A stretch of 64,000 nucleotides of DNA from Ulota crispa (lineage: Eukaryota; Streptophyta; Bryopsida; Orthotrichales; Orthotrichaceae), in assembly GCA_963920765.1 (NCBI GenBank), contig OY987242.1, positions 35,550,002 through 35,614,001 on the forward strand. Direction: 5' to 3'. The translations under genes and the position numbers were made by a program. Positions 17,814-59,249 of this stretch are shown in pieces (the first letter of the stretch is position 1; each line of letters begins with the position of its first letter). The notes under the pieces are model-generated. The model did not search any database. It was given only the letters and a program-made list of their open reading frames with translations, and was not told where the DNA came from.

Positions 17814-17817
17814 AAAG

Positions 17818-18334
17818 CCTAAGGGGTAAGGCCAAAACAAAGATGTATTATAAAATAATATTTATGTAATTTTGATGAAGTTTGTTTCAAAAGTGAAAAT
17901 AAGAATCATGATGTTTGGTAATGATCCATATAGTCAAACACTCAAAAAAAGTTTTGGATTTTTATTTAATGAATTTAGAAGCATTTACCATTTAATATTC
18001 ACCATAATTATAGATTTTATTCATAGATGTTGAAATTTGGTATGATTGGTTAAAAACATACATTCTGTTGTAAACTTCAAAAATGCAATCTTTTCAAAGG
18101 AGAGAACATCATTAGCTTCCCAAAATAGTAAATTTTATAACACTAGCAAATGTTGAAGTGTTTGTCTTTGAAAAAATCTCCTTGATGGAATTTAACTTGG
18201 ATTGACATGGTTCAAGTTGGATTGGAAAGTAGACTTTATTTTCTATTTAAGAATCTTTTAAAAAAATTAAAAGTTTTTTTGCACCTCATGCAATCATGCA
18301 GCAAGAAGAAAATGGTCAATTGAGCTCTTAGGGG
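17818..18334. mobile_element. TTAA-flanked piggyBac-like non-autonomous element, 517 bp
   Basis: TTAA at 17814-17817 and 18335-18338 bracket a segment starting CCCCTAAAAGCC and ending GAGCTCTTAGGGG. No coding capacity. Member of the TTAA/CCCCT group described throughout this window. Confidence 0.6.
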
Positions 18335-18344
18335 TTAAATGACT

Positions 18345-18630
18345 TATTTGTGACATTTTTTTGGCAATATCATTTCAATGACATGTTGAAATGACATTTT
18401 ACTAGCAATGTCAAGTAAACTTGTTTTTGGAGAAGATTTCATTTCAACCTGCTTTAGGGAGGTTGAAATGACAATTTTTAGCAATGACATTTCAATCTCT
18501 TTTGGAGAAGATTTAATCTTGTCTTGCTCTTGCCGGGTTGAAATGACATTTTTTTAGCAATTTTATTTCAACCTCTTTTGAAGAAGATTTAATTTCAACT
18601 TGCTTTGGGGAGGTTGAAATGACATCTAAA
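18345..18630 (+). repeat. Imperfect tandem repeat, ~90-bp unit, three copies
   Basis: GGAGAAGATTTCATTTCAAC..GGGAGGTTGAAATGACA recurs near 18435, 18505 and 18580. Within each unit TTTCAAC and GTTGAAA form a small inverted repeat. Confidence 0.65.
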
Positions 18631-19390
18631 TCAAATTTTCATGAATCAGTTTTTGATGGGGATTTGAAGGTTGGATGTTAGAGTGGGGTGCTGGTATATT
18701 TCTAGCTTTTCGTGAGATTAGGAACATGGTGGAAGAGCTCAATAATGAAGAAAGTGAGGTTTAGTTTTTGAATCCGTTCTTGAGGACATTGGCTCTCACT
18801 ATTTAATAAAGAAGGTGGTGAATTTTGTAGGCATGGAGATGAATCTAATTTGTTGTAATTAGGATCCATTCTTGGGCCTATCAATGGCTTACTTTTCCTC
18901 TTCTCTCATAATTTAAATAATTAGTTTTTGCATGCAAGAATTTGATGTGTCAAAATGTGATTAGTATTTGAAATGTTTTGTGAAAAGATTGTCCATTCTC
19001 TTAGGGCTTCATACATGATTGTTCTACTGAAAAGGTGCGTAATATTGACTATATTTTTTAAATGAAATGCGTGGCATAGGGTTTGATTGGATTGGAGATC
19101 ATCAAGTGAGCATATAATGTAGTAGAATCCAAATAGGGAGCTTGGTTCTAAAAGATTGCACTAGTATACCTATTTGCTTTGAAATAAAAGCACAAATGTA
19201 AGAAATCTACCAATTGGCTTTAATCACTTACAATTATTGCATTCACTATTCAAATATCGTTCTCAAATATACAAAAGTGTAATATAAATATCAAACCTTG
19301 CTAGTACGTAAGGCATTGTTAGAGGAATTTATTGGTTATATGTGATATAACTTTAGATCTTTTGGAAAAATTCATGATAGTTTGAATAAA

Positions 19391-19795
19391 GGATCTCAAT
19401 ACTTTGATACTGCCACCCCCCTCTTTTACATTATTGTTCATATCTCAGTGGTTTTTTAGGATAATTTTTTCTGAAATATTTAGAATTAAATATACATAAA
19501 AGCAAGTGATTTTTTGTTGGTGTTTTTCAAAATGATAAGCTGCAATCAAAAAATTCAATAACAAAAGACAATGCTCTATTATGTTTTCTTATCAAAAAAA
19601 TTTGACTGCACTTTATAATTTTGAAAACACAAACATAAAATCACTTGTTTTTATACATATTTAATTCTTGTTTTATTATTTTAAAAGTGTCCTCAAAAAC
19701 AATTGAAATACAAACCATGATGTAAAAGTGGGGGGTGGTAGTATCAAAAAAGGGGGTGGCAGTATCAAAAAGGGGGGTGGCAATATCAAGACCCT
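19391..19795. mobile_element. Hairpin MITE with G-rich ends, ~405 bp
   Basis: The left end (CTTTGATACTGCCACCCCCC, about 19402-19421) is inverse to the right end, where the motif GGGGGTGGCAGTATCAAAAA is repeated three times (19728-19790). The interior arms also pair (AAGCAAGTGATTTT with AAAATCACTTGTTT). The triple G-run end could form a G-quadruplex. No protein. Confidence 0.65.
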
Positions 19796-19801
19796 AATTA
19801 A

Positions 19802-20454
19802 AAAGGCTATAATGCTTGAGGCACTACATTTTGGTGTCCACAATACTTTGAAGTTTAATAAAACATAACTAAGTTATTATTTTATAGTACTTTATAATTT
19901 TGAGCTATTCTTTTTGAAGTCTAGTTTTAGTATCAAAAATCTCATTTTATAAATGAATGATTATGATTTTTCTATTCAAGATTTTGTGCAAAGGTGTTCA
20001 CAGCAATCTTTGACTTTTTGTAGTGTTGAGAGTTCTTGGAAATGAGCCTCAAATACACTAATTCTTGGAGAAAAATCCACTCTAAAAAATCATTTTCAAA
20101 AATTGTAGAAGAGATTTTGAAAACTTGTAAATTGATTGGGGTTATGTATGTTACATTCCTTAACCTTATATTTTTTTGGTGACCAATTTTTTTAATTTTT
20201 GACATGTGAAAAAAGGATGGAAAGACTTCAAGTCATTTTTTAAAGTTTTAACACCCTCATGATCAAACATTATAACCATTCAATCCATAAGTGCTATTGT
20301 TTTCTTTTCTTTTCCTATCTGAATTATAACATATCTAGTTTGAATTTAAAATTACAATTAAAAAAATGATAAGACAAATTATCAAAATGTTGGTATTCTG
20401 TTCAATTTAGAACAAATTCCTAGAAGCTCAAAAACAGCCTTAGGCATTTTGGGG
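19802..20454. mobile_element. TTAA-flanked element, family R2 copy A, 653 bp
   Basis: TTAA at 19798-19801 and 20455-20458. It is a diverged paralogue of 44645-45512 along its length (shared ATTTTGGTGTCC.., TTTTTGAAGTCTAG.., TCAAGATTTTGTGCAA..). The left end has decayed; the right ends TTTGGGG. It carries a single TTAA at 20160-20163 where the paralogue holds an insertion. Confidence 0.6.
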
Positions 20455-20807
20455 TTAAATCTTGTAGGAGTAAATGCCTTTTTAGGTTGCTAGGGATCAC
20501 ATCCCCGGACTTGCTATAGGGGGTTTAATGATAGAAATTTGCAAAAAGTGAGGGTAGGGTATAATGAAACACACTATTCCTTGCGGCAAAGAAAAGGGAT
20601 GACCACTTCCCATGGGATAAGGCATCTAATACTACTACAGCCTCACTATTTTTAACTTCCTCAAGAAAGGTCTTCCAAATTGCTATGCCAGCATGGAAAG
20701 TTACCACCTTGCAATGCCAAAGACCTGTTCTCCACTAGTTGACTAGTTTGCAAATCTTTTGTTGCATTTAAGTCCTACATGAAATTTAAGGAGGAAAAAG
20801 AAATAAC

Positions 20808-20982
20808 CACTAGAAGAAACTTGCATTTTTTATCACAAATTTTTTTGGACATCCACTTGTTTTTATGTTAATAATGACATCAAATGTATCATCAAGATGT
20901 TAATTTTAACATTAATTGTAACATAAAAACAAGTGAACATCTAAAAAAATTCATGATAAAAAAACACGGATTTCTTCTAGTA
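20808..20982. mobile_element. CACTA-type MITE, 175 bp, with AAC target duplication
   Basis: Begins CACTAGAAGAAA and ends TTTCTTCTAGTA. AAC precedes (20805-20807) and follows (20983-20985) it, the expected 3-bp duplication. The arms pair over most of their length around ATCACAAATTTTTTTGGAC-like sequence. Related to 12543-12698 by ends. Confidence 0.8.
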
Positions 20983-20985
20983 AAC

Positions 20986-22481: not shown

Positions 22482-22485
22482 TTAA

Positions 22486-23647
22486 TCCCTAAAGGACCAA
22501 GCAAAGTTTTCACCAAAAACTCTCCAAAACTGCCATTTTTAGAGCATCAACCAAATTTGAAAACAAATAACGGGATATTCGTTAAATTGGGACAAAACAG
22601 TCATTTTGGGACTTTTTGAAGGTTTTGGGTGATCACCCCAAAGCAGGCCCCCAATCGAGCTCCAGTGTTTTTTTGATACACATGTCCTCACTTGAGAGGA
22701 CTTTGTGAGGTAAAAAATCTTAGTGGCTTAAACTAAATTTGATACTTTTGAATTTGGTTTAGGGTGACTATTTTGGATTGAGGTGGAGTACAAAATGGTA
22801 CCTTTGTTTTTCCCAATTTAATAAATATCCCGTTAAATACATTTTTATGCATATGTGATCATAGGATCTTAGAAGAATGGTTTTAGAAGATGTGGAAAAA
22901 ATTTCAGAGTTTTCCATTGCGTGAATTGGAAGTTAGAATGGTTTGAATGTTCAAAAACGTCTTGTGAAAAACCAGGGAGCTACCCTTTAGAAGGTGAAAT
23001 TCCTAAGGAAAAAAGGTCATGTGGGTGGTGCATCTATAAATTCCTTATTCCACCTAAGTAAAGTACATGTCAAAAAATTTCAAATCATTTGGAATTGTAT
23101 ATAACATATGGAAAAAAATTAGTAAGTAAAAAGTAGAGAATGATTCAAAACACAAAATTGTTAAGAATTTAATTATGGAAATGAAAATGCCAATCCCAAT
23201 GATCGTAATGTTGTGATAAACAATATACATCCTTTGGTTTTGTGTTTTTTCCAAAATAATGAAAATTGAGTAAAATAAAGGACTTCAAAGTTTATTTAAG
23301 AGTAGAGAATCCATAACTGCCTGCAAAATAAAAACCCTCATAACTTTCATCTTGTTGATAAAATAGAATGATTGAAAGCTTCCTACATTCACATAAATCT
23401 CCTAAACCAATTTCTTTTTTAAATGTTTTGAAAAAAGTGATTTTTAAAAATCTACTCAGGCTGCCCGCCGAGTGAAAAACAACATATTAGGCCATAAATT
23501 TTTTACTCAAAATTCCAAATGTCATGAAGTTTAGTGCATATTAAAGATAAACCTCATCCCCACATTCTACTAAAATTTCAGCCTAAAATATGAAAAGCTC
23601 CAATCACATGTACTTGCCCAAAATTGCTATGTTGCTAAAAAAAGGGA
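22486..23647. mobile_element. TTAA-flanked element, family R1 copy 1, 1162 bp
   Basis: TTAA at 22482-22485 and 23648-23651; starts TCCCTAAAGGACCAAGC and ends AAAAAAGGGA. It shares most of its length with the adjacent copy 23660-24579, for example the segments ATCATTTGGAATTGTA and AAGGACTTCAAAGTTTATTT. Confidence 0.6.
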
Positions 23648-23659
23648 TTAAGGACTTAA

Positions 23660-24579
23660 CCCCTTAAGGACCAAGCTACATTTTCAACATAAATCCTCCA
23701 AAACTGTAATTTTTAGAGCAACAACCAAATTTGAAAACAAAAACCTCTTATGCATATGTAATAGTAGGATCTTGTAGTAAAATAATTTCAAAAGATGAGG
23801 AATTTTTTTTGAGATTTTCATTTTGTGAATCGGAAGATACAATTGTTTGAATATTCAAAAATGTTTTTTTGGGTCATGTGAAAAACTAGGAAGCTATTCT
23901 TTAGACAGTGAAAATCCTAAGGAAAAAAGGCCATGTGCATGGTGCAATTCTAAATTCTTCATTCCACCTAAATAGGGTACATGACAAAAAAGTTTCAAAT
24001 CATTTGGAATTGTAAAACATATGGGAAAAAAGTAGTAAGTAAATAGAAGTACAGAATGATTCAAAATAGTGAACTGTCAAGAATTTGATAATGGGAATGA
24101 AAAATGCCAACCCCAATGGTTATGATGCTCTAGAAAACAATCTACATGTTTTTATTTTATTTTTTCCCAAAATATTGAAAATTGAGTAAAATAAAGGACT
24201 TCAAAGTTTATTTTAGAGTAGAGAATCCTTAAGTGCTCGCAAACAAATGCTCCTCATAACTTTCATCTCATTAATCAAACTGGAATGATTCAAGCTTTCC
24301 ACATACACATAAATCTCCTAAACCAATTTTAAATTTCTATTTTAGATAAATGTGATATTTTTAAAGCTGCCCGAATTGATCATGTGAAAAAAGCAACAAA
24401 TTTGGCCATAACTTTTAACTCATAATTCCAAATGTCATGATATTTGGTGCATACAAAAAATATTCCTAGTCCTCATCTTCTATTAAAGTTTTAGCCTAAA
24501 ACATAGAAATCTCCATTCACAAGTACCTGCTTGAAATTGTTGTGTTGCCAAAAAGCACATCTTATGGTACTTTGGAGGG
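23660..24579. mobile_element. TTAA-flanked element, family R1 copy 2, 920 bp
   Basis: TTAA at 23656-23659 and 24580-24583; starts CCCCTTAAGGACCAAGC and ends CTTTGGAGGG. It follows copy 1 by 8 bp in the same orientation, so the pair is a tandem dimer. No coding capacity. Confidence 0.6.
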
Positions 24580-24639
24580 TTAACTATCAAAAGACCAAGA
24601 ATAATGTAGATTTCCAATAAAGTAGAGATGTCATAAAGC

Positions 24640-27632: not shown

Positions 27633-29126
27633 TCACAAGAAGGTCGTAACTTTGCCAGAGGTTTCAGTGCGCGATTCTTTAATCGCAGCCACTTTCCGGA
27701 TCATCCCTTCAATAGTCAAATCAAAAGCATCACTCTGCAGAATGTCCACAGCTCCAGGATGCTTGTAAATCACACTAGGAATCATAGAAATGAGCTTCTC
27801 ACGCATCTGGAGCACCTGAGCAGCAGGGATTTCCCGAAGAATGTCTCTCACGATACACGTCCCATTCATGATACACTCCTCCGAGATGAAAACGGAGAAG
27901 GAGCTGTAGTCATCCGGAAAATGCCACAAGTACTGCCTGGCAGCAGAGTCTCCGTGAAACAAGACGGGAATGCAGCCCGAGACGATGGAATCAATAGTGG
28001 ATCTGCGAGTGGCGGTGTCTCCACGCGGTTGCAAACAGAAATCGGCTTGCAACAAGCTCTCGTAAATAGGCTCCGGGTTGTGACCGCAGCTGATCTTGGC
28101 GCAGTCCAGCCTTGCACATTCTGAGGAGGCATTCACGCATTGGTCTGACAGAATGCCGCGGATGCTCGCCGCCATTTGTGGTCGCAGCGCGCCGGAAAAG
28201 GAGAACAAAGCGGTGCGTTCTGAGGATCGCACCTTGTCGATCCAGAGGTTTAGGCTGGTGGCTGAGGAAGGGTGGAAACCGACAGGATAGGGGATGGCTT
28301 GCTCTTGCGACCGCCATGGCCGACGCTCCAGCACCATGAAAGTCACGTTCTGAAGCTCGGTTAAATCGAACATGTGCGTCCCCCAGTTCCCTCCCCAACC
28401 TGCCCCCGGAGAGCCGAAATCCCACGCTGTTCGTCCCGCGATCATGAAGTGGTCGCGCCCGCCGTACCGATGCCAAGAATTTGCAGCGTTTTGGTTGAGC
28501 CAGGAAATCACGCCATAGCCTTGCTCTTGAGAGCGCATCGTATCGTTGTACAGGTAGGGCAAAGCATCGAGACCGGAGAAGTACGGGATGAAGAAGATGT
28601 CGGCGTCGTCTGGGGATTCTGTTAAGCAGGGGTACGCGCTCATGCGGTCGAAGAAGATGACCTCGAGCATGTAGGCGTCCGTGCGGTACCAGTCGCGGGC
28701 GAAGAGTTCCGTGGTGTTGACGATCTCGCCGAAGCCGTAGTTCTTGTAGTGCTTGCAGAAGCGAATCCATTCTACCAAGCCGCCATCGCAGTGCGTCAGT
28801 ATTTCAGTGTGGAAATTCTCCGGCATGTCGTACATGTGCACACGTCTGCCGTGACAGGCGTCCAACGTCTCGGGGGAAGAGATGTGAGAGAAGTTCGGAG
28901 CGTCGGAGGTGAAAGCGACTTTGACCGGGCTTATGCTCATCCAGATTGTGACGAGCACGATGCAAACGATGACTACACACTTCGGTGTCCATCTCTTCTT
29001 GAAGCTCGGCGGCCGATACTTCTTCGATAACATCTTCGGCGTATCTGTAAAACGTCCAATTCGCTCGCCCTGGAAATCCGAGACACCAATCCAGCTTAGT
29101 CTCGGGAAACGACGCACAGATTTCAT
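27633..29126 (-). CDS. Exostosin-family glycosyltransferase (GT47, MUR3/XLT2-like)
   Basis: An intronless 497-residue type II membrane protein. A single hydrophobic segment (about residues 50-65) follows a basic cytosolic tail (KKYRPPSFKKRW), then a short stem and an exostosin domain from about residue 93 to 450. Hallmark motifs are GGRDHF (222-227), FCLQPRGD (363-370) and SGCIPVLF (383-390); the last two form the nucleotide-sugar binding core of GT47. N-glycosylation sites lie near residues 137, 194, 260 and 332. Within GT47 the GGRDHFMIAGRTAWDF stretch and overall length fit clade A, whose characterised members (MUR3, XLT2) add galactose to xyloglucan in the Golgi; the exact acceptor is inferred only. 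The first ATG is at 29126; a second at 29033, with A at -3, lies just before the membrane anchor and is an equally likely start. GC content is far above its surroundings. Confidence 0.9.
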   Translation of the reverse strand: MKSVRRFPRLSWIGVSDFQGERIGRFTDTPKMLSKKYRPPSFKKRWTPKCVVIVCIVLVTIWMSISPVKVAFTSDAPNFSHISSPETLDACHGRRVHMYDMPENFHTEILTHCDGGLVEWIRFCKHYKNYGFGEIVNTTELFARDWYRTDAYMLEVIFFDRMSAYPCLTESPDDADIFFIPYFSGLDALPYLYNDTMRSQEQGYGVISWLNQNAANSWHRYGGRDHFMIAGRTAWDFGSPGAGWGGNWGTHMFDLTELQNVTFMVLERRPWRSQEQAIPYPVGFHPSSATSLNLWIDKVRSSERTALFSFSGALRPQMAASIRGILSDQCVNASSECARLDCAKISCGHNPEPIYESLLQADFCLQPRGDTATRRSTIDSIVSGCIPVLFHGDSAARQYLWHFPDDYSSFSVFISEECIMNGTCIVRDILREIPAAQVLQMREKLISMIPSVIYKHPGAVDILQSDAFDLTIEGMIRKVAAIKESRTETSGKVTTFL

Positions 29127-30330
29127 CACTACGCACACCAAATTGATCAATCAATCGCCAAGGACATGCAGCTCCACGATAAATTCGTGCAAGAGCAAAG
29201 TAAGCTTAGATTGTCAAGCCTCTTTTACCGTGATATTCCCGAGAAAAGCGCGTAGACTGTGAAAGTCACTAGCGAGTTGTCACGTTCATAAACCTCAATA
29301 AGAAATACAAAATCTCAATATCGCCATTGTAATTTCGCCGTCAACAAAGTTCGACAATCAAAGCGCGCCACCAATACCAGCACAAATACACAATTGCGCG
29401 CGTCTCTCGAAAAGCACTGCGGCGGAGCTTTCGAACTACGAAAACTAAAAAACAGAGACGGCGAGAAATCCAATCAAATCACTACACCAGAAATCTTGGC
29501 TCGCTCATCAAAATCGAACAACCAGACGCTCTTTATAACCAAAAACTAAGCAACGATTTGCAAAGAATGAACTCCTCCGACGACGCCGTGGTTCAAAATC
29601 GGTCTCTCACGACACACCAACCGCGGACAACGACGTGACTTAAGCTTAATCCACGCGTCCTCGAAGCTCGTCATGCACTCAAGCGCTTGAGTATTTCGAT
29701 GAGCAGAATCCAACCACGCATTATACTCAAGCACGTTCTCGCCTGTCCTGCCCTACCTTCCCCATCCCAATCACGGACACAACCTCTAGGAGCAAAAAAA
29801 AATCCAGGAACTCGCTATTTCTCGAATTCGCTATTTCTCGAATTCACTCCGGGATTCTATTGCAATGCTTCGCAAGAGCATGCGGCTATGGAACTACGGC
29901 TATCTTCGGTGTTACTAATGCGGAGAAATCGGCGATTGCGGAAGATTGCTAGAGATTGCTGGCGATTATTGGACAAAGCGAGCGATGAATCGATGGATCG
30001 GCCACAAAAAAAATGTGCTGCGCATCGAGATTGCGCCGCAGCTCAATGAAAATGGCTGCAAGTGCGATGGATTGTTGCCGTAGCTCGCAAATGGTGGCGC
30101 TCTTGCAGCGAGAGAGACGCTCCTCGTTTCTCTCGCATCGGAGGCGGAACTGCGGTGAGCTCGCAGCTCTATACCTATTGGCTCTCGCCCTTTTCACCAC
30201 GTCAGCCTATAACATACACCACCTCAGCCTATACCTTACTGGTGAGTTCCCGTGACTGCCAACGCAGCGCGTTTCGTATTGGCTGCTGCAGCGCGCCTAT
30301 TCAATAAGTCTTTTTTTCCTTCGGGTACTT
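29127..30330. promoter_or_regulatory. GC- and CpG-richer upstream region of the glycosyltransferase gene
   Basis: The 1.2 kb upstream of the start is richer in CG dinucleotides than any other non-coding part of the window and drops abruptly to AT-rich DNA after about 30330. Short frames exist on both strands but none looks coding. It is likely promoter and 5' UTR; no core element could be fixed. A direct repeat CTATTTCTCGAATTC occurs twice near 29820-29845. Confidence 0.4.
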
Positions 30331-33891: not shown

Positions 33892-34280
33892 GGGATTTGA
33901 TATGTGTACCACACCTTCTTGACTATCCCACCACACCTTGGGTTAAATTTTAGATTTCTACCATCAAAAACTTGAATTTGAGAATTTGGAATTCAGATTT
34001 GGACTAGAAACCGTGATTTTGTTTAGAATCATAAAAAAATGGTTATATTTGAACAACACCCAATGAAAAAGCTTAGCTTGGGGAAAAGTATTACTTTTAC
34101 TTTTGTTTAGAAAAAGGATACGCTTTTTCATTGGATGTTGTTCAATTATATTTTTTTTTTGTAATTTTAGATAAAATCACGGTCTTTAAGTCCAAATCTG
34201 AATTCCAAATTCTCAAATTCAGGTTTTTGATGGTAGAAATCTAAAATTTACCCCGCGGTGTGGTACGCATATCAATTCCC
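33892..34280. mobile_element. Hairpin MITE family F2 copy 1, ~389 bp
   Basis: Almost the whole element is an inverted repeat: GGGATTTGATATGTGTACCA at the left is inverse to the right end GTACGCATATCAATTCCC. The arms share the stretch AATTTTAGATTTCTACCATC (left) and its inverse. Copies 2 and 3 are at 34759-35160 and 39465-39869. Confidence 0.8.
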
Positions 34281-34758: not shown

Positions 34759-35160
34759 GGATTTGATATATGCACACCCAGGGTTTGTTATATGTATATG
34801 GGGTAAATTTTAGATGTTTACCATCAACAAGTTGATTTTGGAAAACTTGAATTCACATTTGAATTTAAAGAATTTAATTTAGTTTAGAACCACAAAGGAG
34901 GATACAATTGAACAACGTCAAAAAAAGCTTAGCTAGGGGTGAATTATTACTTTTATCTTTGTTTGTAAAACAAAACTAAGCTTTTTCAATAGACATTGTT
35001 CAAATGTATCCTCTTTTGTGGTTCTAGATTATACTAAGGTTTCTAAATCCAAATGTGAATTCAAATATTTCAAATTCAACTGGTTGATGGTGAATATCTA
35101 AAAGTTTTCCTCACCTCTAGTGTACATGTAACAAATCCCAAGTGTATATGTATCAATCTT
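34759..35160. mobile_element. Hairpin MITE family F2 copy 2, ~402 bp
   Basis: Same structure as copy 1: GGATTTGATATATGCACACC at the left, inverse-like right end, TAAATTTTAGATGTTTACCA in the left arm and its inverse in the right. AAGCTTAGCTAGGGG marks the loop. Confidence 0.8.
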
Positions 35161-38005: not shown

Positions 38006-38759
38006 CCCTTGAAAGCCCCAAAGGACCAAAATGGTCTTCACAGGATTTCACATGCATGTTTGAGGTATTGAATCTAATTTTTTGACCTTGCTATAAACTA
38101 TAATTATTTAGGTATTCAAGTGGTCCATGCAAGTGAAGTAATGGCAAGACAAGTCATATGTAATACAAGTGCCTCAAGAGTTTCAATTTGGTGAAACACC
38201 ATATGGGGCATAGTAGCAAGCAATGTCTTACAAGCTACAACTAATCAACACTCATGGCAAGCTTCCTTGCATGTGCTTTGTGGTAGCATGAAATTCACTA
38301 GTAAGGGTTCAAGCATGTTTCAAACCCTTGTCAGGGAAACCCTCACTAGTTGTGCCGGTCATCTTTTTCCGTGTAATTGCAAATTGAAGCCCTAAAACTT
38401 AACTTACAAAGAAGTAAAAATTTTGATAATTTGCAAGTGTGTCCATTCACATCTAATCTTACTACTCAAAAATTTTGAGATGAATGATGGGGCTTATAGA
38501 ATTTTGTAAAAATCATTAAACATCAACTACTTGCCAAAAATGAGATTTTGCCATCACATGTTGTTTGATCAAATGTTATAACCTCTCATCTCTCACAGTT
38601 AATTGTTCCCAAAATTTGCAATCCTTTTTCTAAGTAGGTGTTCCACCACTTTCAATGGTCACTTTTTGTGGATCATCCAATTGACTAAGATACTATGCAT
38701 CAAAGTTGTAGGTCTCCCAAAAGCCTAATTTTGGTGAAAATAGCCTAGGCGCTCAGGAA
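38006..38759. mobile_element. TTAA-flanked element, family R3 copy 1, 754 bp
   Basis: TTAA at 38002-38005 and 38760-38763; starts CCCTTGAAAGCCCCAAAGG. It aligns over its length to 57423-59218 (shared ACACCATATGGGGC, TGTGCCGGTCAT, GAAGCCCTAAAACTT, CTAAGTAGGTGTTCCAC). No protein. Confidence 0.65.
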
Positions 38760-39315: not shown

Positions 39316-39919
39316 ACCCCTAAAGGACTAAGCTCTTTTTTGTGAAAGTCACTGAAAACTACCACTTTTAGGGAGTGAGTAGAAAGGTAGGACAAAAAGG
39401 TTTTTTTGAAATTCAATTGTAGGATCCTACCCTACACTATGGAAGGTACTTGTAGAAAAAAAAAGGAATTGATATTTGCACACTGAGGGGTTGATATATG
39501 CACACCTCCTTGGGGGAAAATTTTAGATCTATACCATGAAAAAGCTAAATTTGAGAATTTTGAATTCAGATTTGGACTTAGATACCATGATATAATTTAG
39601 AACCATAAAAAGGATTGTAATTGAACAACATCCAATGAAAAAAGCTTATCTATTTTTAAAACAAAAATAACACTTTTTCCACTAGCTAATTTTGTTCATT
39701 GAGTGTAATTCAATTGAAACATTTTTTATGGTTCTAGCCCAAATCATGGTCTCTAAGTCCAAATCTGAATTCAGAATTTCCAAATTCAGCTTTTTCATGG
39801 TAGAAATCTAAAATTTACCCTGCGGGGGTGTGCATATATCAACCCTCTAGTGTGCACATATTAATCCCCAAAAAAATCAACTCATTCTAGATGTGATTGA
39901 GTGATGTATTGACATCTGA

Positions 39920-39956
<37 letters not shown>

Positions 39957-40460
39957 CCAAAAACTTCAGAAGCCTTTGACCTCTCCTATTTCAAAAAAAA
40001 TGCTCTATGCAAAGTTGAGGTTTATTATTTCCATGTAGAAGAGAATCTTCAAATGAATTGGAGGTGTGAATCATACTTTGTAAAATCTTGCAATGTTGTA
40101 AGGCCATGAAATTTGCATATACACTAGGCAAAATTGGAGGATTTATGTAAAATTCAAATATTCAAATTACTTTAATCCAAAAGGTGAAAACCAAGGAATC
40201 CTAGTCTACTACAACTTGGAAAGAAAAAAAAGTCAAAAAACAAATAGACAAAGAGCTTAAAAAATTAAAGCACCAAATTTTACAAGGGCAAAAGGAATCA
40301 AAGTTTGAGAGTTCCATACCTACTTGCAAACTAAAACTTCTTGCTCATCAATCAAAATTGAATAATTCAAAGCTTCCCACATACATGTAAATCTAGAGAA
40401 CCAATTTTATATTTATATTTTAAAAAAATACAATTTTAAACGAGTTTTTGGGACGCCCGG
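39316..40460. mobile_element. Family R1 element, right end lost, with an F2 MITE inside
   Basis: Starts CCCCTAAAGGACTAAGC after a TGAA (a decayed TTAA) and follows the R1 order (TTTCATGTAGAAG-like, GCTTCCCACATACATGTAAA) to about 40460, where similarity stops before the usual end. The F2 MITE 39465-39869 interrupts an A-run. A 30-base poly(A) lies at 39920-39950. Confidence 0.55.
39465..39869. mobile_element. Hairpin MITE family F2 copy 3, ~405 bp, nested in R1
   Basis: GGAATTGATATTTGCACAC at the left and an inverse right end; the arms share AATTTTAGATCTATACCATG and its inverse. The R1 sequence resumes directly after it (TCAACTCATTCTAGATG), giving a clear insertion boundary. Flanking A-runs hide the target duplication. 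Confidence 0.8.
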
Positions 40461-42598: not shown

Positions 42599-44465
42599 CC
42601 CTCAAAGGCCCAAGTGGCCCCTCGGGGGCCAAGAGAGGGATTTTGGGCGTGTACTTACAGCTAAACCATTTTGTGTGATTTTTTGAAATTTTTATGGAAT
42701 ATGCAGAATTCAAAAATCTACATGGGCATCCAATTTTTTCTCATTCCAACTTATATTGAAGAAGTTCTGCATGAGTTTCTAAAAAACAAGGGAGGACAGA
42801 CATCCCAAAAACTCCTTTAATTTGTTGTTTTTTTTTAATATAAAAATATAAAATTGGTTCTCTAGATTTACATGTACATGGGAAGCTTTGAATCATTCAA
42901 TTTTGATTGATGAGCGAGAAGTTTTAGTTTGCAGGTAGGTATGGAACTCTCAAACCTCCATTCCTTTTGCTCTTGTAAATTTTGGTGCTTCAATTTTTTA
43001 AGCTCTTTGTCTATTTGTTTTTTGACTTTTTTTTCTTTCCAAGTTGTAGTAGACTAGAATTCCTTGGTTTTCACCTTTTGGATTAAAGTAATTCAAATAT
43101 TTGAATTTTACATAAATCCTCCAATTTTGCCTAGTGTATATGCAAAAAACATGGCCTTATAGCATTGCAAGATTTTCCAAAGTATAATTCACACCTCCAA
43201 TTCATTTGAAGATTCTCCCACACTTACTTACCTAACTTGGTCTTCCACATGGAAAAAAAAACCTCAACTTTGCGTAAAGCAATATTTTTGATATAGGAGA
43301 GGTCAAAGGCTTTTGAAATTTTTGGGCAGCACGGAAAAAAACTTTCTTTTTCACTTCAGATGTCCATAACCCACTCCTTTACAGTCGGGTACATGGTGTT
43401 TACCAACTGCCAATTTGAGCTATTGAGTTTTTTTGATGGAACGTGGTATATAGTTGGTATATTTTTGTCAAAAAAATTACCATTGCATCCTTATGCAATA
43501 CCAAGCAAGCATATCAAATTTTAGCTCCTAAAAATCAAAACTCCATTTTTGGTGAATGATTTTGTAAGAAATTTATGGTTTTACATGATAATTAATTGAA
43601 AAAAATTGGTGATGAGTTTTTGAGATTTGATTCCATGGATATGTAGGAAACATTCATATGCACATCTTCCGTGCTAAAAAAAACCCCTTTAAGTAACAAA
43701 ACTTTGAGCTACAGAAGATTCAATGAAACTTGTGATAGGCCCAAATTTCGTAAAATACATATTTTTCTGTGAAAATCAAATTTTGTTGTTTGACTCATAA
43801 ATTGTAACTAAGTTTGTATCTCTAAACATGATGTTTTGTTTACTTGATGAAAAGCTAATTAAAAAACATATATGTATATATATATATATATATATATTAC
43901 AAAATTTGGGCATATCATAAGTTTCATTGAATCTTCTGTAGCTCAAGGTTTTGTTACTTAACGGGGGTTTTTTTTAGCATGGAAGATGTGCATATGAATG
44001 TTTCCTACATATCCATGGAATCAAATCTCAAAAACTCATCACCAATTTTTTTCAATTAATTATCATTTAAAACCATAAATTTCTTACAAAATCATTTACC
44101 AAAAATGGAGTTTTGATTTTTAGGAGCTGAAATTTGATATGCTTGCTTGGTATTGCATAAGGATGCAATGATAATTTTTTTGACAAAAATATACCAAATG
44201 TATACCATGTTCCATCAAAAAAAACTCAATAGCTCAAATCGGCAGTTGGTATACTAACATGTACTTGACTGTACATCTAGAATGAGCTGATTTTTTTCCC
44301 ACAAGTACTTCTCATAGTGTAGGCAAGATCTTACGGTTAGATTTCCAAAAAAAAAAAAAAAAAAAAAAAAATCATAACTATTCATTCTCCCAAAAGTGGC
44401 AGTTGATAGTGACTTTCACAGAAGAAAAAAAAAAAAAAAAAAAAAAAAACTTGGGCCTTTAGGGG
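42599..44465. mobile_element. Family R1 element in reverse orientation, with a foldback insertion
   Basis: TTAA at 42595-42598 and TGAA at 44466-44469. It starts CCCTCAAAGGCCCAAG and ends TTGGGCCTTTAGGGG. Orientation is opposite to 39316-40460. The segment 43381-44272 is foreign to the family. Two long A-runs lie at 44350-44371 and 44426-44449. Confidence 0.65.
43381..44272. mobile_element. Large foldback element, ~375-bp near-perfect arms
   Basis: Left arm 43381-43762 and right arm 43899-44272 are inverse copies with few differences, separated by an unpaired ~135 bp ending in a (TA)n run (about 43872-43898). The outer ends are ACAGTCGGGTAC and GTACTTGACTGT. The R1 sequence continues on both sides. 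It has no coding capacity; a transcript would form a long double-stranded hairpin. Confidence 0.85.
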
Positions 44466-44644: not shown

Positions 44645-45512
44645 CCCCTAAATGCCCAAAGCACCACATTTTGGTGCCAACAATATTTTGAAGTGCAATA
44701 AAATCTAATTGAGCTGCTACTTTTAGATTTTTGTATTTCAGAATTATTCTTTTTGAAGTCTAGATTTAGCATCAAAAACCCAATTTTGAAAATTATTGAT
44801 TGTGAATTTTCTATTCAAGATTTTGTGCAAGGGTGTCCATTGCAATCTTGACCTTTTTAGTGTTGAGAGCTCATGAAAATGAGCTTCAAATACACTAGAT
44901 CTTGGAGAAAAATTCACACTAGAAATTCATTTTAAAAAAATGTAAAAGAGATTTTGAAAAGATGTAAATGGACCAGAGTTATATATGTTATGCCTTTAAC
45001 CCTTGAAGGGCCCTTGGGCTTTGGAGCTACGGTACCAAATACAGTCACAACCAATATTCAGAAGTTTGAATTAGTTGAAAATTAAGTGTTACAACCATAC
45101 ATATTGAAGGGTTGTATGATGGTGGGTGCATATTTATTTTGAAAAGCCCTCAGAGCAGCTCAAATACATCTGTACATACGATCATACATACAGCTGCAAT
45201 GGGCGTTTGGGCCCTTTAGGGGTTAACCTCATATTTTTGGTGTCCAACATTTTGGATTTGACATATGAAAAGAGGATTGAAAGACTTGAAGTCAATTTTC
45301 CAGTTTTAACACCCTCTTGATCAGACATTATAATCTTTCAATCCACAAGTGGTATTGTTGCATTTTCTTTTCCTACTTGATATCTAACATATCTAGTTTA
45401 AATTTGTACGGTTACAATTTTTAAAAAATTGATACAACTTATCAAAATGTTGACTTTTGTTCAGTTTAGAGCAAATTCCTAGAAGCTCGAAAAAAGCCTT
45501 TGACATTTAGGG
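44645..45512. mobile_element. TTAA-flanked element, family R2 copy B, with a nested TTAA element
   Basis: TTAA at 44641-44644 and 45513-45516; starts CCCCTAAATGCCCAAAG and ends CCTTTGACATTTAGG. Paralogous to 19802-20454. Interrupted at 44996-45226. Confidence 0.75.
45000..45222. mobile_element. TTAA-flanked piggyBac-like element, 223 bp, nested in R2
   Basis: TTAA at 44996-44999 and 45223-45226. Starts CCCTTGAAGGGCCCTTGGGC and ends GTTTGGGCCCTTTAGGGG. The paralogue at 20160-20163 has a single TTAA in the same context, so exactly one TTAA was the target and it was duplicated. Confidence 0.85.
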
Positions 45513-47563: not shown

Positions 47564-47803
47564 CCCCTGAGCGCCCATGCCATATTCACTCAAATCCATA
47601 CCCTTGTGTACTTAGTTCAATAAAAGTATTACCTAAGTAGAGTCAAATAGTTTGAGTTTTTTTGAGTGGTAGTAGACACGTGCCTGGAGGTACATGAAAA
47701 AGTACAAGTCCTTTGACTTTACCATTAAGAAGAGGATAAGAGTCAAACATGCACATTTTTTAAAACTAAGCGACCACATTCGGGCTCCTGGGACGCTCAA
47801 GGG
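47564..47803. mobile_element. TTAA-flanked element, 240 bp
   Basis: TTAA at 47560-47563 and 47804-47807; starts CCCCTGAGCGCCCATGCC and ends CCTGGGACGCTCAAGGG. The interior is unlike the other members. Confidence 0.65.
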
Positions 47804-48869: not shown

Positions 48870-49798
48870 CTTCTAAAGGATTGTTGTCCCTTCGGGGACA
48901 TCTTGGACTTTGGGCATGTACCTATGGCCAAACTATCTTGTGACATTTTATGAAACTTTTATTGAAGGTGGGGAATTCAAAGATCTATGTGGGCATCTAA
49001 TTTTTTCTTCATTCCAACATTTGATGAAGAAGTTATGCATGAATTTATGAAAATTTGGGGAGGACTGCCCATCTGGGCAGCCCAAAGCTTCTTTAATTTT
49101 TTTTTTTTTAAACACAAATTTGAAATTGGTGTTTTAGATTTTTTTATTCATGAGAAGCTTTGAATCATTCAATTTCAATCAATGACATGAAAGTTATGAG
49201 GAATTTTTGTTTGCGGGCAGTTATGGATTCTTTACTCTAAAATAAACTTTGCAGTCCTTTATTTTACTCAATTTTCAATATTTTGGAAAACAAAGTAAAT
49301 AAAAGGAAGTAGATTGATTATCACAACATTATCACTGTTGGGATTTGCATTTTTCATTTCAATAGTTAAATTCTTAACAATTTAGTGTTTTGACTCATTC
49401 TCTACTTCTTTTTACTTACTATTTTTTCCCATGTGTTGTATTGTTCCAATTGATTTGGAAATTCTCCCACATATACCTAACTTGATCTCCTACATGGAAA
49501 AAATAAAGCACAACTTTGGGTAGAGCAATTTTTTTGTTATAAGAGTGGTCAAAGGCATCTGAAATTTTTGGGCAGCATGGAAAAAAACTTTTTTTTTTCA
49601 CTTTAGATGTAAATATCTCACTCCTACCCATTTGGAATGAGCTGATTTTTTTCCCACAAGTACCTCTTCCAATCTAGGGCAAGATCCTATGGTTGGATTT
49701 CCCAAAAACAAAACATAAAATCCATTTTTTCTAAACCTCCTAGAAGGGGCAGTTTTTAGTGATTTTGGCAAAAAAAAAGGGGCTTGGTCCTTTAGGGG
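48870..49798. mobile_element. TTAA-flanked element, family R1, reverse orientation, 929 bp
   Basis: TTAA at 48866-48869 and 49799-49802; ends TTCTAAAGGATTG and GCTTGGTCCTTTAGGGG. It is uninterrupted and so is the best full-length reference for R1 in reverse orientation. It aligns (inverted) to 55016-55937. Confidence 0.75.
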
Positions 49799-50029: not shown

Positions 50030-50040
50030 GCACCATTGTA

Positions 50041-52437: not shown

Positions 52438-53313
52438 CCCCTAAAATTCTTTTGTGTTTACATGGTCAAATGGTTCAAAATGGACCTCTCTCAATAAAAT
52501 GATTAGTAAATCAAAATTTTGAATTTTTTTCAATAAATTAACCCTAAGATCTATTTTTTCACTTGCTTATGTACATCCTCTCAAAAATTCAAACTTCGTG
52601 AGGGCATACTTCATTAGATTATAACATTCAAAGTAGGGGCAAAACTTTTTTTGAAGCTTCTCTTAGGTGCCAATTTTTTTTGTTTTAGTCATTCAAAATG
52701 TTATCTTCCTTTTTATAAATTTCTTTTGCAATTTGACTTTCTTGTTGAGCATGAAGTTGGCTATATGCCTCACAAATTTCATGATCATCCAATGCTTAAA
52801 ACATAATGGAAAAAAAATCAAAAGCGGGAATTGCTTTGTTCAAATTGTCATTACACTAAGAAGTATTCACAAAAAAGATTCTTATAGAAATAAATCTTAA
52901 TTACAAAATCTATACGATATAAACCTAGAACTTCATGGGAGTACTTGCCAAAGTAATTTTTTTCTAAAAATAAAAGTAAAATAGAAGTTATTACATAGTC
53001 AAGGAGAGTTGATTGCAAATTTTGCCCATTGACCAAGCCATTGTAAAGTGCCTTTGAACACTATTTGGACAATATCCTTCCTCAATTCCTTTGTTTCTGA
53101 ATTTTTTTGAGGATACCCGTGTTGACATCTAAATCACATATGGTACCATATCTCACTCAAAAATTATTCAATTCCATTTTTTTAAAGGTATGCAAGCTTT
53201 TCAATATGAGTACATACACCCTTATTTTCACAATCTTATCTTATGTATTTACGCGGGAAATGCTTGCCCAAATATCCCACAATCCCAAAACGGGCTCCTT
53301 GATCTTTTAGGAA
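52438..53313. mobile_element. TTAA-flanked element, 876 bp
   Basis: TTAA at 52434-52437 and 53314-53317; starts CCCCTAAAATTC and ends CTCCTTGATCTTTTAGGA. The interior has no paralogue here. Short frames only. Confidence 0.5.
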
Positions 53314-53317
53314 TTAA

Positions 53318-53936
53318 AGTGTCAAGTCTCAATTTTTGGCTCTACACCAATCACATTCTCAAATTTCAGTGAAATATAGTGCAAAGAGCCCCTAAATAAA
53401 CCCTTTCAAAATTGATTGGTTACTTTGTGGTTTCTTTTTGTAGAACAACAATAACAACTTACTTCATCCAAATTTAGAGAAGAAAGCATTTCCACCTTCG
53501 CAACATATAAAAACAAATTTTCATCTATTTTTTTAAATAAAAAATGCTTTAATGAAATTTGAGTATGTGCCTTTCTTTAGATTTTTGGATTTATCATAAT
53601 GAGTGATATTCATATTTTCAAATTTTGACTGGATTTCTTTAGATACCAAATAATATTAGAGGCATCCATTGCATTAGAATGGGATTGGAATAACCCTCAT
53701 TAAGGGAAAAATGAATTGGATTACCATATTACAAGAGTTTTATTTCCGAAATTAGGTCTAGTATTTGGCAATCACTCCTAATTTCTTGTCATTTATAGCT
53801 TCTACTTGTATTATTACATTGTAGCAATAAAATGAATTTAAAAAATATTAAAGACCAATCCGAAAAAATAAGTTTAAACAATAAAAACCCTTCATAAGTA
53901 CCAAAGGAAGTAATATAACATTATTTAATAGGTTAA
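53318..53936. other. Intergenic, no gene seen
   Basis: No supported feature. Confidence 0.4.
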
Positions 53937-54367
53937 CCCCTAAATCTCTGAGTGTCCCCTTGGGGGACAAATGAGATTTTGGGCAGGTACCTATGATTAA
54001 ACTACTTTATGTGATTTTTTGAAACTTTTATGGAAGATGGGGAATTCAAACATCCGTGTCCGCATCTAATTTTTTTCATTCTGACATTTTTTGAAAAAGT
54101 AAAAAATGAATTTCTGAATTTTTTTGAAGATGGGGCAGTCCAAGCAGCCTAAAAACTTTTTTAAAATTTACTTTTTTTTGAAATAAAAATCTGAAATTGG
54201 TTCTTTGAGTCTACATATACATGGGAAGCTTTGAATCACTTGTTTCTAATAAATGAAATGAAAATTATGAGGACTTTTAGTTAATTGGTAGATATGGCTC
54301 AATCACACAAAGTAGTTTAGTCATAGGTGCGTGCCTGAAATCTCATTTGCCCCCGGGGATTTAGGGG
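53937..54367. mobile_element. TTAA-flanked R1-related element, 431 bp
   Basis: TTAA at 53933-53936 and 54368-54371; starts CCCCTAAATCTC and ends CGGGGATTTAGGGG. The inverted arms extend inward (GGTACCTATGATTAAAC with GTTTAGTCATAGGTGC). It resembles one end of R1 joined to its own inverse, an internally deleted derivative. Confidence 0.75.
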
Positions 54368-54371
54368 TTAA

Positions 54372-55015
54372 GATGTTCATTCACAACAAATGACTACAAA
54401 TAAGATACTCTACAAAGGTAAACATAAGATAATAGGAGTCACGGGCAGCATCCTAAGGTCATAATGTTGCATTTCTTTAGTCAAAAAAGTCATTTTATAC
54501 AAACAACTGTTTGGAGCATATCAATTGTTTACTTTGCCAAAACCCTCAATGTCAAATGCTAATTACTTGAAAGATTCCAAATTGAAGATAAGTTTGCATG
54601 ATGAATTTTGAGAGTTTGTTCTTTTGGACAAAATGCACTAAGATGAATATTAATTCAACATGACTTTTCTACTATATACTATTAGAGACTCCAAAGCAAA
54701 ATTTTCATATTCTTCCAATTGTTTAGATATCTTAGGTTCAAATTTAGGCTCAAAACTTACATATATAAGTTGTGGTTCCATAGCAATATCAAACATGGAA
54801 AATTGTTCACTTAGTGAATTTGGATAATCTCAAGTACCTAGTTTTAGGTTTGTATTTAGCAACATTGTGTTAAATCACCAAAGACTTAATGTAATACAAG
54901 ATGAATGTTTTAAGGAAATATATAGAAAATTATTGATAAGTTTTAGAAAGTAATAGACAAAATTTTCATCAAATTTGTTTGTTAACATTGCTCATGGATT
55001 TAGAACCATTTATCT
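54372..55015. other. Intergenic, no gene seen
   Basis: No supported feature. Confidence 0.4.
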
Positions 55016-55937
55016 CCTAAAGGACCAAGCCATTTTTTCTGTGAAAAACACATAAAATTGCCACTTTTGGGGAAGCAAGTATAATGGTAAGAAAAAAAGT
55101 TTTTACAAGAATTCAACTGTAAGATCTTATAGTAGACTACAAGAGGTACACGTGGTAAAAAATCAGCTCAATCTACACAAAAATGAGTGAGATATTTACA
55201 TCTGAATTCTGGATTTTTTTTTTTTTGCAGCTGCCCAAAATTTTCAGAAGGCTTTGACCACTCTAAGAGCAAAAAATTTACTCTACACAAAGTTGAGGTT
55301 TATTTTTCCCATGTAGGAGACCAAGTTAGGTATGTGTGGGAGAATTTTCAAATCAATTGGAAATATACAACACATGGGAAAAAATAGTAAGTAAAAAGAA
55401 GTAGAGAATGAGTCAAAACACTAAATTGTTAAGAATTTAATTATTAAAATGATAAATGCAAATCCCAATGGTTATAATGTTTTGATAAACAATCTACATC
55501 CTTTGGTTGTTTTTTTTTTTTTCCAAAATAATGAAAACTGAGTAAAACAAAGGACTTCGAAGTTTATTTAAGAGTAGAGAATCCATAACTGCCCACAAAC
55601 AAAAACTTCTCATAAGTTTCATCTCGTCTATCAGAATTGAATGATTCAAAGCTCCCCACATCTATATAAGTCTAAAGAACCTATTTTAGATGTTTATTTG
55701 TTAAAATTGAAAATTTTAAAGAAGTTTTTGGCTACCTGGGGAGCAACATTTTCCAAATTTTCATGCATAACTTCTTTAGTAAATGTCAAAATGAAGAAAA
55801 AATTACATTCCCACTTAGATCTTTGAATTTCTCACCTTCAATAAAAGTTTCAAAAAATCACGCAAAGTCGTCTAGCCATAGGTACATGCCCAAAATCCCA
55901 TTTGTCCCCCAAAGGGACAATGGTCATTTAGGAGAAA
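55016..55937. mobile_element. Family R1 element, forward, ~922 bp, flanks decayed
   Basis: Starts CTCCTAAAGGACCAAGCC and ends GACAATGGTCATTTAGGAG. It is complete along the family and inverse to 48870-49798, but the TTAA at each side is no longer intact. Short frames (for example 55187-55387) are family-wide accidents. Confidence 0.65.
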
Positions 55938-56330
55938 ATGTAAACATAATGCTTGAATGAAATTTGTTGATATGTATGTGAATCATAAAAAGCCACATTC
56001 AAGTGATGATATTCATGTTACACTATGATTCAAAAAACCCTATATGTTTACAAAAAAAGCATTGATATGCTATTGGAGTTATTAACAATCTTGAAGATAA
56101 TGAGCATTGTAAGTATATAATTTACCTTGATGTTTGACTGACTTTGAGAAATGATGAAGTCAATCAATGCTTTGTTAAGACCAAATTTAAGTCAACCAAA
56201 TCAAATCAAAACTTGGTGGCATATATTCAAAGAATCCAGTTTTTTAGTTATAGTTATTGATATATAAAGGCCATTACTAGATGCTAAACATAGTGCATCA
56301 CATTGATCATATTCAAAAATAGAAGAAGAT
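55938..56330. other. Intergenic, no gene seen
   Basis: No supported feature. Confidence 0.35.
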
Positions 56331-56760
56331 TGTCTATATATATAAAAGAATCTTGTGTTGGATGAAAATCAAAATAGAGTAGAGTAACAATAAAGTACAA
56401 CAAATTATTGTAAGTTACACCAGAAACACTCTCTTTTATCCACTTCACCAGACGTTAACAATAAGTAGCTAGTAGTTGTACCACAACTTTTTCTTGGCCA
56501 ATTAGAACGCTCATATATTCTTTAAAAGAATCTCATATTGGATGAAAAGTAAATAGATTAAAGTACAAGTTTAACTACATTTATAAATGGAATAAAGTAA
56601 AATTTGGGGGGCAAGGGCATAGGAGGGCATGGGGATAGGAGGCACATGGATAGAAGGCATAGGGATAGGGGGGCATGGGGATAAGATTGCTATTGCACAA
56701 TTTGTTTATTGCAAGGATAGTTTTGTTGCCTTTGTTGGTACTACGGGTACTTAAAATAAT
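56331..56760 (+). repeat. Helitron-like fragment with GGGATAGG minisatellite
   Basis: Begins near TCTATATATATAAAAGAATC, repeats AAAAGAATCTCATATTGGAT at 56525, and ends with TTTGTTGGTACTACGGGTAC. The array 56605-56690 (GGGGATAGGAGGCA-type units) is the inverse of 24716-24820. Confidence 0.45.
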
Positions 56761-57422
56761 ATTGTAGTATAGAAATTGAACCAAAAATGGAACCTATAGG
56801 GTCAAAGTCAACCTTCATGTTCAAAACTTAGATGCCACAACTCCTTGTTCTTTGACCACATATCACAAAATAAATTCTAATTAGAGAACTAATTTTTTTC
56901 TTCTAAGTAAAACATACCCTTTCTATATGTTGACAGAAATCATATCATTGAACAAAGATTTGTAACAAATAAGTGTAACAATGGAATTGCCAGATCTAAA
57001 ACAATTCAAACTTTACAATTGCTTAACTTTATACTTCAAAGTCACTTGTAATATGGATATTCTATTTCTTCATTCTAGCACATTCATCAATAAAGGAAGT
57101 TTAAATTTCTTTGAATTATTTTAGAGCCTCGAAGAATAAGGTTTTTATCTTATGATAATTAACTATTAGCTAATATGAGGTGCAAATCTTAATATTTTGT
57201 ATTGCATGTTACAAGGCTCTCCTTATAAATGACCTTAACGATAGAATGGTTTCCGTGATGGATGTGTAGTGAAGCCTCATTATAAATTTCAAACAAATAA
57301 AAATAAAATAAATGCAAATGCTATAAAATATAAATGAAGAAAGTTTTTGCCATCGATATTTTATAAATGATTTTCAAAATGTCGATATACGCATTCATTC
57401 TTTGTGAAAAATCGATGTTAAT
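56761..57422. other. Intergenic, no gene seen
   Basis: No supported feature. Confidence 0.35.
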
Positions 57423-57594
57423 TCCTGAGCTCCCCAAAGACAATGTATTGTCTTTGGGGATTGGAAATGCTTATTTTAGGAACTAGATCTACTCTTTTTA
57501 ATTTTGCTTTAGATTGTAATTATGAAGGTATTCAAGTTGTCCATGCTAATGGAGTAATGATAAGGAAAGTCAAATATTATACAAGTGCTGCAAG

Positions 57595-58628
57595 TAGTGT
57601 CCAAGGAGGTTTTTAAAATAACTTGGTACGTTTCCTACTTTTCTATGGTCTACTCGGTTTTTTTTAAAATTGGCCATGGCCTAGACATGTATTTTTTGGT
57701 CGGCCAATAACCTTAATTTTTTTTTTCACTCGATTGATTTCCTAAGTTGAGGAAATTAGTTTGATTGAAAACTGAATTTCAATGTATTATATCGGATTTT
57801 TTTTTTTACAAATGCTACAAACAAATCCATCTTTTGCTTACCATGTGCATGGCATAGCAAAGCAAGGCAATGATTAGACTAGTGTTTTTTTTTTGGGCCT
57901 CATGAGGCCACCTTGTCAGATATTGAACCAACCAGCCTCTCTCCCTCTCATAATACTCCATTCCTAGGAAGGCACATGGCATGTGGTAGGTGAAAAAAAA
58001 AACATTGGATTAGACAACAACTTGTCAAGTTACCCCCAATCAATGCAAGTTTCTTTATACTTTAAATGGATTTATTGTTGACTTATGTTACTTAAATATG
58101 TTTGGCTAGATTTTAACCGGGTCAAGCACTCTCCCATGGTAGCCTACTCATCCACTCACCCTCTCACCCTCTCATTTACTCACCCACTCACCCATTCACC
58201 CACTCACCCATTCACCCACTCACCCATTCACCCACTCACCCATTCACCCACTCACTTACCCACCCACTCACCCACATGGCCACCTCACCCATATTTCTTG
58301 TTTTTCTAATTTTTGACCTTTTAGCACAGTGTAATTGCTCATGAAATAAAAAAACAATTGATTTTTATTTTGAAGATCGGAAAATTTCCTTATCACAAAA
58401 AAAATTCATAGGTTGATTTCTCATCATTTCGATTTTCATCTGGCCCATTTTCTCATCTACATGTGCATGTTTGGCTAAATTTCCTAAGGCTAAAACCATA
58501 AATTGGCTGATTTCCTAAAACCATAATTTTATGGTTGGAAGTAAATTTGACAACTTTCATTTTATTTTGGCAATTCCCAAAAAAAGTCGGCTACCTTGTA
58601 ATTAAAAGTTGGTTCTCCCCAGACACTG
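57595..58628. mobile_element. hAT-like non-autonomous element, 1034 bp
   Basis: It begins TAGTGTC and ends GACACTG, flanked by GCTGCAAG (57587-57594) and ACTGCAAG (58629-58636), an 8-bp duplication with one mismatch. The paralogue at 38.16 kb lacks the insertion. No transposase frame. Confidence 0.7.
58146..58280 (+). repeat. 16-bp minisatellite CCCATTCACCCACTCA
   Basis: Eight or more units of alternating CACTCACC and CATTCACC lie inside the hAT-like element. Strong strand asymmetry (C-rich plus strand). The open frame over it (Thr/His/Pro/Ser-rich) is a repeat artefact. Confidence 0.85.
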
Positions 58629-59249
58629 ACTGCAAGAGATTTGATTGGGTGAAATACCATACGGGGCGTGGTGGCAAGTAGCATTTTACAGGTTGTAACC
58701 GGACAATATTCCTTGCAAGCTTCCTTCACTGTGCTTTGTGGTAGTGGGAAAGTTGTTGGCAAGGGTTCAAGCATGTTCTAGACCCTTATTGTGGCAATTG
58801 TCACTAACTGTGCCGGTCATTGTATTCTGTGTAATAGCAATTTGAAGCCCTAAAACTTGACATAAAAAGAAGTGTAAATCTTCAATAATTTACAAGTGTG
58901 TGCATTTACATCTAATCTTGCTGCTCACAAAATTTGAGGTGAATATAGGGCTTATAGAATTTTGTAGAAATCATCAAATAGCAACAACCTACCAAAAACT
59001 GAGATTTTGTCATCACATGTTGTTTGATAAAATGTTATAATCTCCCATCTCCTATGGTGAATTGTTCCCAAATTTTGTAAGCCATTTTCTAAGTAGGTGT
59101 TCCACAATTTTCAATGGTCACTTTTGGTGGATCATCAGATTAACCAAGATACAATGCTTCAAAGTTGTCAGTCTCCAAAAACCCTAATTTTGGTGAATAT
59201 GGCCTAGGTGCTCAGGGGTTAAAGAAGACTAGAGATAAATTTAATGTAA

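Follow-up and report, generated by a model that had tools for sequence, protein, structure and literature searches.

TTAA-bounded miniature elements of probable piggyBac type in the genome of the moss Ulota crispa

A 64-kb stretch of the genome of the moss Ulota crispa (contig OY987242.1, here C1; C1:35550002-35614001; called the window below) contains a series of short segments that have TTAA on both sides and inverse tips of the CCC(C/T) type, which raises the question of what kind of transposable element they represent and what moved them. The assembly comprises 274,817,297 bases (274.8 Mb) in 157 contigs. A sequence-only reading had proposed that the segments are miniature inverted-repeat transposable elements (MITEs) of the piggyBac type, and this assignment is supported by their ends, by empty insertion sites and by a DDE_Tnp_1_7 domain within matching ends. 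Very probably the segments belong to the piggyBac superfamily as non-autonomous, MITE-like elements and owe their movement in trans to several related DDD (three catalytic aspartates) transposases from elements of about 5-5.6 kb in the same genome. They are assigned to piggyBac because TTAA alone is duplicated at two sites, because they share short terminal inverted repeats (TIRs) starting with CCC, and because DDE_Tnp_1_7 with the DDD residues lies inside such ends elsewhere in the genome.

TTAA boundaries and copies

With ends and flanks printed, TTAA was found on both sides of all 12 segments that had been listed, after two left edges had been shifted from 17818 to 17808 and from 57423 to 57422. 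Several tips are decayed and do not start with CCC, namely those on the left at 19802 (AAAGGC), 22486 (TCCCT), 48870 (CTTCT) and 57422 (TTCCT) and those on the right at 23647 (TCCCT), 38759 (TTCCT) and 53313 (TTCCT). Three further segments had rightly been described as having decayed TTAA: 39317 is preceded by TGAA, 42599 retains TTAA while 44465 is followed by TTCA, and 55014/55934 has lost TTAA on both sides. Together the elements amount to about 13.1 kb of the 64 kb (a hand sum that includes nested insertions). In a self-comparison of the window their interiors form seven groups, in agreement with the earlier count of at least six unrelated ones: group A (22486, 23660, 39317, 42599, 48870, 53937, 55014), group B (19802, 44645), group C (38006, 57422) and four singletons within the window (17808, 45000, 47564, 52438).

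The target duplication is TTAA alone at two sites. Both pairs of empty and filled sites were read by eye; an automatic alignment of the first scattered the gap. The first filled site, in the family B element 44645-45512, reads ATGCCTTTAA, followed by the insert (CCCTTGAAGG...CCTTTAGGGG) and TTAACCTCATA, and its paralogue 19802-20454 provides the empty site, ATTCCTTAACCTTATA, with one TTAA only. The second empty site, GATGGAATTTAACTTGGATTGAC, has its TTAA at 18192-18195 in the miniature 17808-18334. A homologous miniature at a transposase-bearing locus, L012, is filled and reads GGTGGAGTTTAA, insert (CCCCTTGAGG...CTCAAGGAG) and TTAACTTGGATTGAC; here the insert between the duplicated TTAA is about 5.3 kb long and contains the DDE domain. 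The comparison of empty with filled sites that had been suggested for these elements therefore gave one versus two TTAA in both cases.

With a G+C content of 35% and 466 TTAA in the window, the boundaries might be regarded as a chance effect of A+T-rich sequence. This explanation is already contradicted, and its probability is close to nil: TTAA stands immediately in front of 9 of the 21 window sites that agree with CCCCTAAAGGACCAAG in at least 12 of 16 positions, whereas three Markov-resampled windows contained 12 such sites and TTAA before none of them. Genome-wide, the exact right tip CCCCTAAAGGACCAAGCC occurs 1523 times and is joined to TTAA, as TTAACCCCTAAAGGACCAAGCC, in 1249 cases (82%), and the control patterns of both, read backwards, have 0 occurrences; the search for these ends in the whole genome thus turned out as the sequence-only reading had anticipated. 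The two empty sites likewise speak against chance.

Relatives of four families were sought in the genome. The first-look candidates (8516 for family A, 2148 for family C, 1091 for the 52438 family and 2433 for the 47564 family) are seeds and not copy numbers, and 40 were scored per family. For the family A element 48870, 39 other scored copies are 89-90% identical across nearly the full length, and for 38006 of family C, 39 scored relatives are 84-88% identical, most of them near full length. Boundaries were assessed with queries carrying 100-bp flanks, and similarity that ended within 2 bp of the outer TTAA edge was counted. In the 47564 family it starts there in 32/41 cases, ends there in 32/41 and does both in 27/41; the corresponding values for the 39 scored relatives in the 52438 family are 29, 27 and 18, and 8 of the 39 stop just inside the right tip. 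Among ten copies of family A, TTAA is present on the left in nine and on the right in eight, the eight including one with a substituted first tip base. The members of the four families queried are thus short, non-coding and dispersed in many copies with common boundaries, as is typical of MITEs.

Transposase-bearing elements in the same genome

No transposase had been noticed in the window, and this was borne out: tblastn with three open frames gave no E value better than 1.9, and no scored match of PF13843 (DDE_Tnp_1_7) lies inside it. Elsewhere in the genome PF13843 has at least 120 matches, the best with 1.3e-73 (116 of 528 candidates were scored), which are spread over contigs C1 to C11. 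From the 120 matched places 28 loci were fetched, and in seven of these both TTAA/CCC-type ends were found, 5.2-5.6 kb apart: L012 (898-6197), L014 (782-6003), L017 (585-6086), L018 (199-5846), L022 (488-6003), L024 (713-6127) and L026 (608-6180). Their flanks are TTAA except for the right flank of L018, which is TTGA, and between the two ends of an element 11-14 of the outermost 16 bases are identical. When ten loci were extended, matching ends about 5.0-5.1 kb apart also appeared in L001 and L006. The proposed search for DDE_Tnp_1_7 hence revealed piggyBac transposase genes inside matching ends, in the same genome and outside the window. In L012 the left end was first placed at 739, which is the end of the surrounding miniature; 898 is the better position. 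In the fetched loci TTAA elements often adjoin each other or are nested, and sometimes they seem to share one TTAA-like site (L018 199-6811, the right flank of L022, the left flank of L026, and L012).

An open frame of 389 amino acids in L009 has piggyBat as its best match in the PDB (2.6e-24), followed by T. ni piggyBac (7.6e-20), and its three catalytic Asp motifs align with those of both proteins. A CxxC..CxxC..C..C motif follows the DDE domain at a distance of 181-207 bp in 11 of the 28 loci, compared with 0/28 in the upstream control, the pattern having been written after examples had been seen.

Other superfamilies with the same target must be considered. Sola3 targets TTAA. Kolobok duplicates it too and, according to PMC9587614, is recorded in algae (chlorophytes and rhodophytes). 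The same text gives Kolobok termini as 5'-RR..YY-3', however, whereas the tips in the window are CCC and thus 5'-YY, and elements with such ends carry PF13843, the piggyBac domain, a transposase different from that of Kolobok. That the segments belong to Kolobok or Sola3 is accordingly very improbable; both were ruled out by the tips and the transposase that were found, and their own transposases were not searched for.

The PF13843 matches also reside on a contig with a plant gene. A LEAFY gene on C4 is represented by a SAM domain (the best of six matches) and two DNA-binding stretches; LEAFY is not known outside streptophytes, and the residues in its KMRDYVH and GAWCQACY motifs are presumably those of moss LEAFY. 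Contamination is not a plausible source of the transposase genes because their matches extend over C1-C11, including the LEAFY-bearing C4. PF13843 had no match in 14 control genomes, and neither had LEAFY, so that a plant may be missing from these controls. On contigs C1, C2, C3, C5 and C10 the LEAFY SAM domain has five further, weaker matches (7.9e-9 to 1.8e-4).

The left-end palindrome and its possible function

The left ends of eight transposase-bearing elements contain a palindrome around bp 25, where the share of complementary cells is 0.86, compared with a shuffle maximum of 0.50 (n = 300) and with 0.23 in 15 right ends. The latter set includes the L021 end of a family A miniature, and seven matched end pairs offer the cleaner comparison, with 0.88 on the left versus 0.20 on the right and a null maximum of 0.57 (n = 1000). 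L028 has two candidate left ends, one with and one without the palindrome, and including both lowers the value from 0.86 to 0.77. Among nine left ends, two-sided changes occur at pairs 5 to 9, where the letters vary and the pairing is kept. In the window, 6 of 14 elements, four of them from family A, have at least 6/7 pairs at one end and at most 4 at the other.

The palindrome could simply reflect common descent of one repeat and not a protein-binding site. A G(A/G/C)GGACA-like half site is indeed common to L012, L014, L017, L022, L024, L026 and L025, and the palindrome is decayed or absent in some cases. Yet L018, L009 and one of the L028 candidates have different half sites at the same place with pairing kept, as do the miniatures of families A, B and C, and the position equals that in the moth and bat elements. 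Descent alone is therefore an unlikely explanation, and a binding site for the transposase is preferred here.

CCC tips are also those of T. ni piggyBac. The resemblance to this element (PDB 6x67/6x68) extends to the TTAA target and its duplication, the DDD transposase and a left-end palindrome, whereas the plant host, the element length of more than 5 kb and the distant protein similarity (7.6e-20) set the moss elements apart. According to PMC7351741, the C-terminal zinc domain of T. ni piggyBac binds as a dimer to bp 17-33 of one left end. The element holds a 19-bp repeat in both ends, in different layouts (PMC11707139), unlike the matched right ends of the plant elements, which are without a palindrome at bp 25. 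The same source describes imperfect palindromes in piggyBat of Myotis lucifugus (PDB 9c0f) that lie 3 bp inside motifs, the first motif being at bp 11-16, and reports none recognised on the right; a palindrome on the left only is thus shared with the plant elements, and the first one of piggyBat would occupy about bp 19-32 if derived from the motif positions. The piggyBat left end has three motif/palindrome units according to this source, and the plant ends were compared with it at the first position only. The plant left ends have the same layout as those of piggyBac and piggyBat. Both animal elements bind their C-terminal zinc domain at this place, and by analogy the plant zinc domain may bind at the left-end palindrome.

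The elements would move by cut-and-paste and, like piggyBac, excise seamlessly. The core of the transposase would read the tip of about 13 bp, the left-end palindrome of 17-19 bp, with its centre near bp 25, would be gripped by C-terminal zinc domains acting as a dimer, and an asymmetric synaptic complex would result, as in piggyBac and piggyBat. The earlier suggestion that one enzyme mobilised all families in the window has in its favour that TTAA and a CCC(C/T)TNA-type tip are common to all of them. The tips are of distinct types, however (CCCCTAAAGGACC, CCCCTGAGCGCCC, CCCCAAAATGACC and others), the left-end palindromes vary in sequence among elements, and there are more than 100 transposase matches. 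A single piggyBac-type transposase is consequently rather doubtful as the source of all movements, and several related enzymes are the likelier agents because tips and palindromes sort into separate types and the transposase copies are both numerous and varied; the existence of several end types itself suggests several transposases.

A number of observations weigh against this picture of piggyBac-type miniatures mobilised through a left-end palindrome. Most of the listed PF13843 matches are interrupted by stops, with a few frames open. As a possible parent of a window miniature, none of the 28 transposase loci goes beyond tip-like similarity, so that no parent was found for them, and PF13842, the zinc family, had no match in the genome nor in any control and hence is uninformative. 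The palindromes had been noticed by eye before the first eight left ends were tested, which was thus not a blind test, and these ends are not fully independent, their 19-bp blocks agreeing at 4 to 18 of 19 positions. A follow-up on ten further loci yielded eight candidate left ends, of which three (L010, L025, L001) have at least 6/7 pairs at bp 24-25, L016 has 4/7, and L015, L006, L023 and L027 have 0-3; L013 and L019 had no candidate left end. Although the follow-up copies are decayed and the candidate of L023 resembles the right tip of family A, the outcome is weaker than in the first set. Inverted repeats also exist in right ends (5/7 at bp 24 in L016, 6/7 at bp 30 in L020), and across the pool of all 28 ends in the window the pairing at bp 25 is 0.32, below the shuffle maximum of 0.41.

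Individual elements, neighbouring features and significance

From left to right, the window elements begin with the miniature 17808-18334, which has no relatives in the window, carries TTAA and a CCCCTAA tip at each end and preserves, at 18192-18195, the empty site of a transposase-bearing element. The family B element 19802-20454, with its decayed left tip, contains the empty site of 45000-45222. Two family A elements, 22486-23647 and 23660-24579, adjoin each other in the same direction and were recognised by flanks, motif sites and self-comparison. Family C is represented by 38006-38759, with TTAA on both sides and relatives in the genome. Two family A relatives follow: 39317-40453, in which the left TTAA has become TGAA, the right edge is known from alignment only and a palindrome is inserted at 39465-39868, and 42599-44465, with a left-end palindrome centred at bp 25, a TTCA right flank and an interruption by a palindrome at 43380-44273. 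Flanks and self-comparison define the family B element 44645-45512, which has its left-end palindrome centred at bp 25 and encloses the 223-bp miniature 45000-45222 with duplicated TTAA. The relatives of the 240-bp miniature 47564-47803 in the genome end at the outer TTAA edge. The family A element 48870-49798 is supported by genome copies and the flanks of ten copies; in this copy the centre of the left-end palindrome is at 23.5. The miniature 52438-53313, without relatives in the window, is defined by the boundaries of its relatives in the genome, and the family A element 53937-54367 (palindrome centred at bp 25) by flanks and self-comparison. Motif sites and self-comparison identify 55014-55934 as family A, with TTAA lost on both sides and, at the 55934 end, a palindrome centred at 24. 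The last element, 57422-59218, belongs to family C by flanks and self-comparison, has a left-end palindrome and harbours a hAT-like insertion. Self-comparison reveals nesting in 39317-40453, 42599-44465, 44645-45512 and 57422-59218.

The hAT-like insertion (57594-58633, about 1.04 kb) has TAGTGTC/CAGTGTC-type ends, in contrast to the TTAA elements, and flanks, GCTGCAAG and ACTGCAAG, whose 8 bp agree at 7/8 when read by eye. The palindrome at 43380-44273 is 894 bp long with arms 88% identical, and similar stretches occur in L021 and L011. The palindromic elements at 33930-34264, 34763-35156 and 39465-39868 form one family, a separate mobile one with relatives in L004 and L028. Dense tandem arrays occupy 13507-16019, with units of, for example, 128, 18 and 8 bp (GCATGGGG). 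Scans of the window for Rfam families and tRNAs gave no matches. Two host genes lie on the minus strand, a GT47 exostosin-type glycosyltransferase at 27633-29150 (7.3e-67) and a 14-3-3 exon at 63086-63592 (4.8e-60).

A genome-engineering tool in wide use derives from piggyBac, whose biology has been described mostly from animals. PMC10813416 lists CCCTC, CCCTT and CCCAT as piggyBac TIR motifs and states that piggyBac was isolated from plants too, a plant review counts PiggyBac among the plant superfamilies (PMC10794571), and a fern repeat table gives 1230 PiggyBac copies, or 0.00% (PMC6890710). A description of such elements in a moss was not found in the open-licence literature on piggyBac in land plants; repeat libraries were not covered. 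One paper on mosses (PMC10619864) was a match solely because it uses the word 'piggybacking'. The elements described here represent a known superfamily that is abundant in a host lacking any description found, and their ends are built like those of animal elements. It is conceivable, at somewhat less than even confidence, that piggyBac radiated in this genome into many transposase lineages with their own left-end palindromes, that the miniatures take up a large share of the genome, and that the one-sided palindrome near bp 25, retained in moth, bat and land plant despite changing letters, is ancestral to the superfamily and coevolves with the zinc domain. A land plant in which transposase genes occur together with over 1000 exact repeats of one end would close a gap in the distribution of the superfamily, and plant-resident relatives of piggyBac would become available for study. 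Their many natural pairings of left-end palindrome with zinc domain would allow tests of how the asymmetric complex is encoded.

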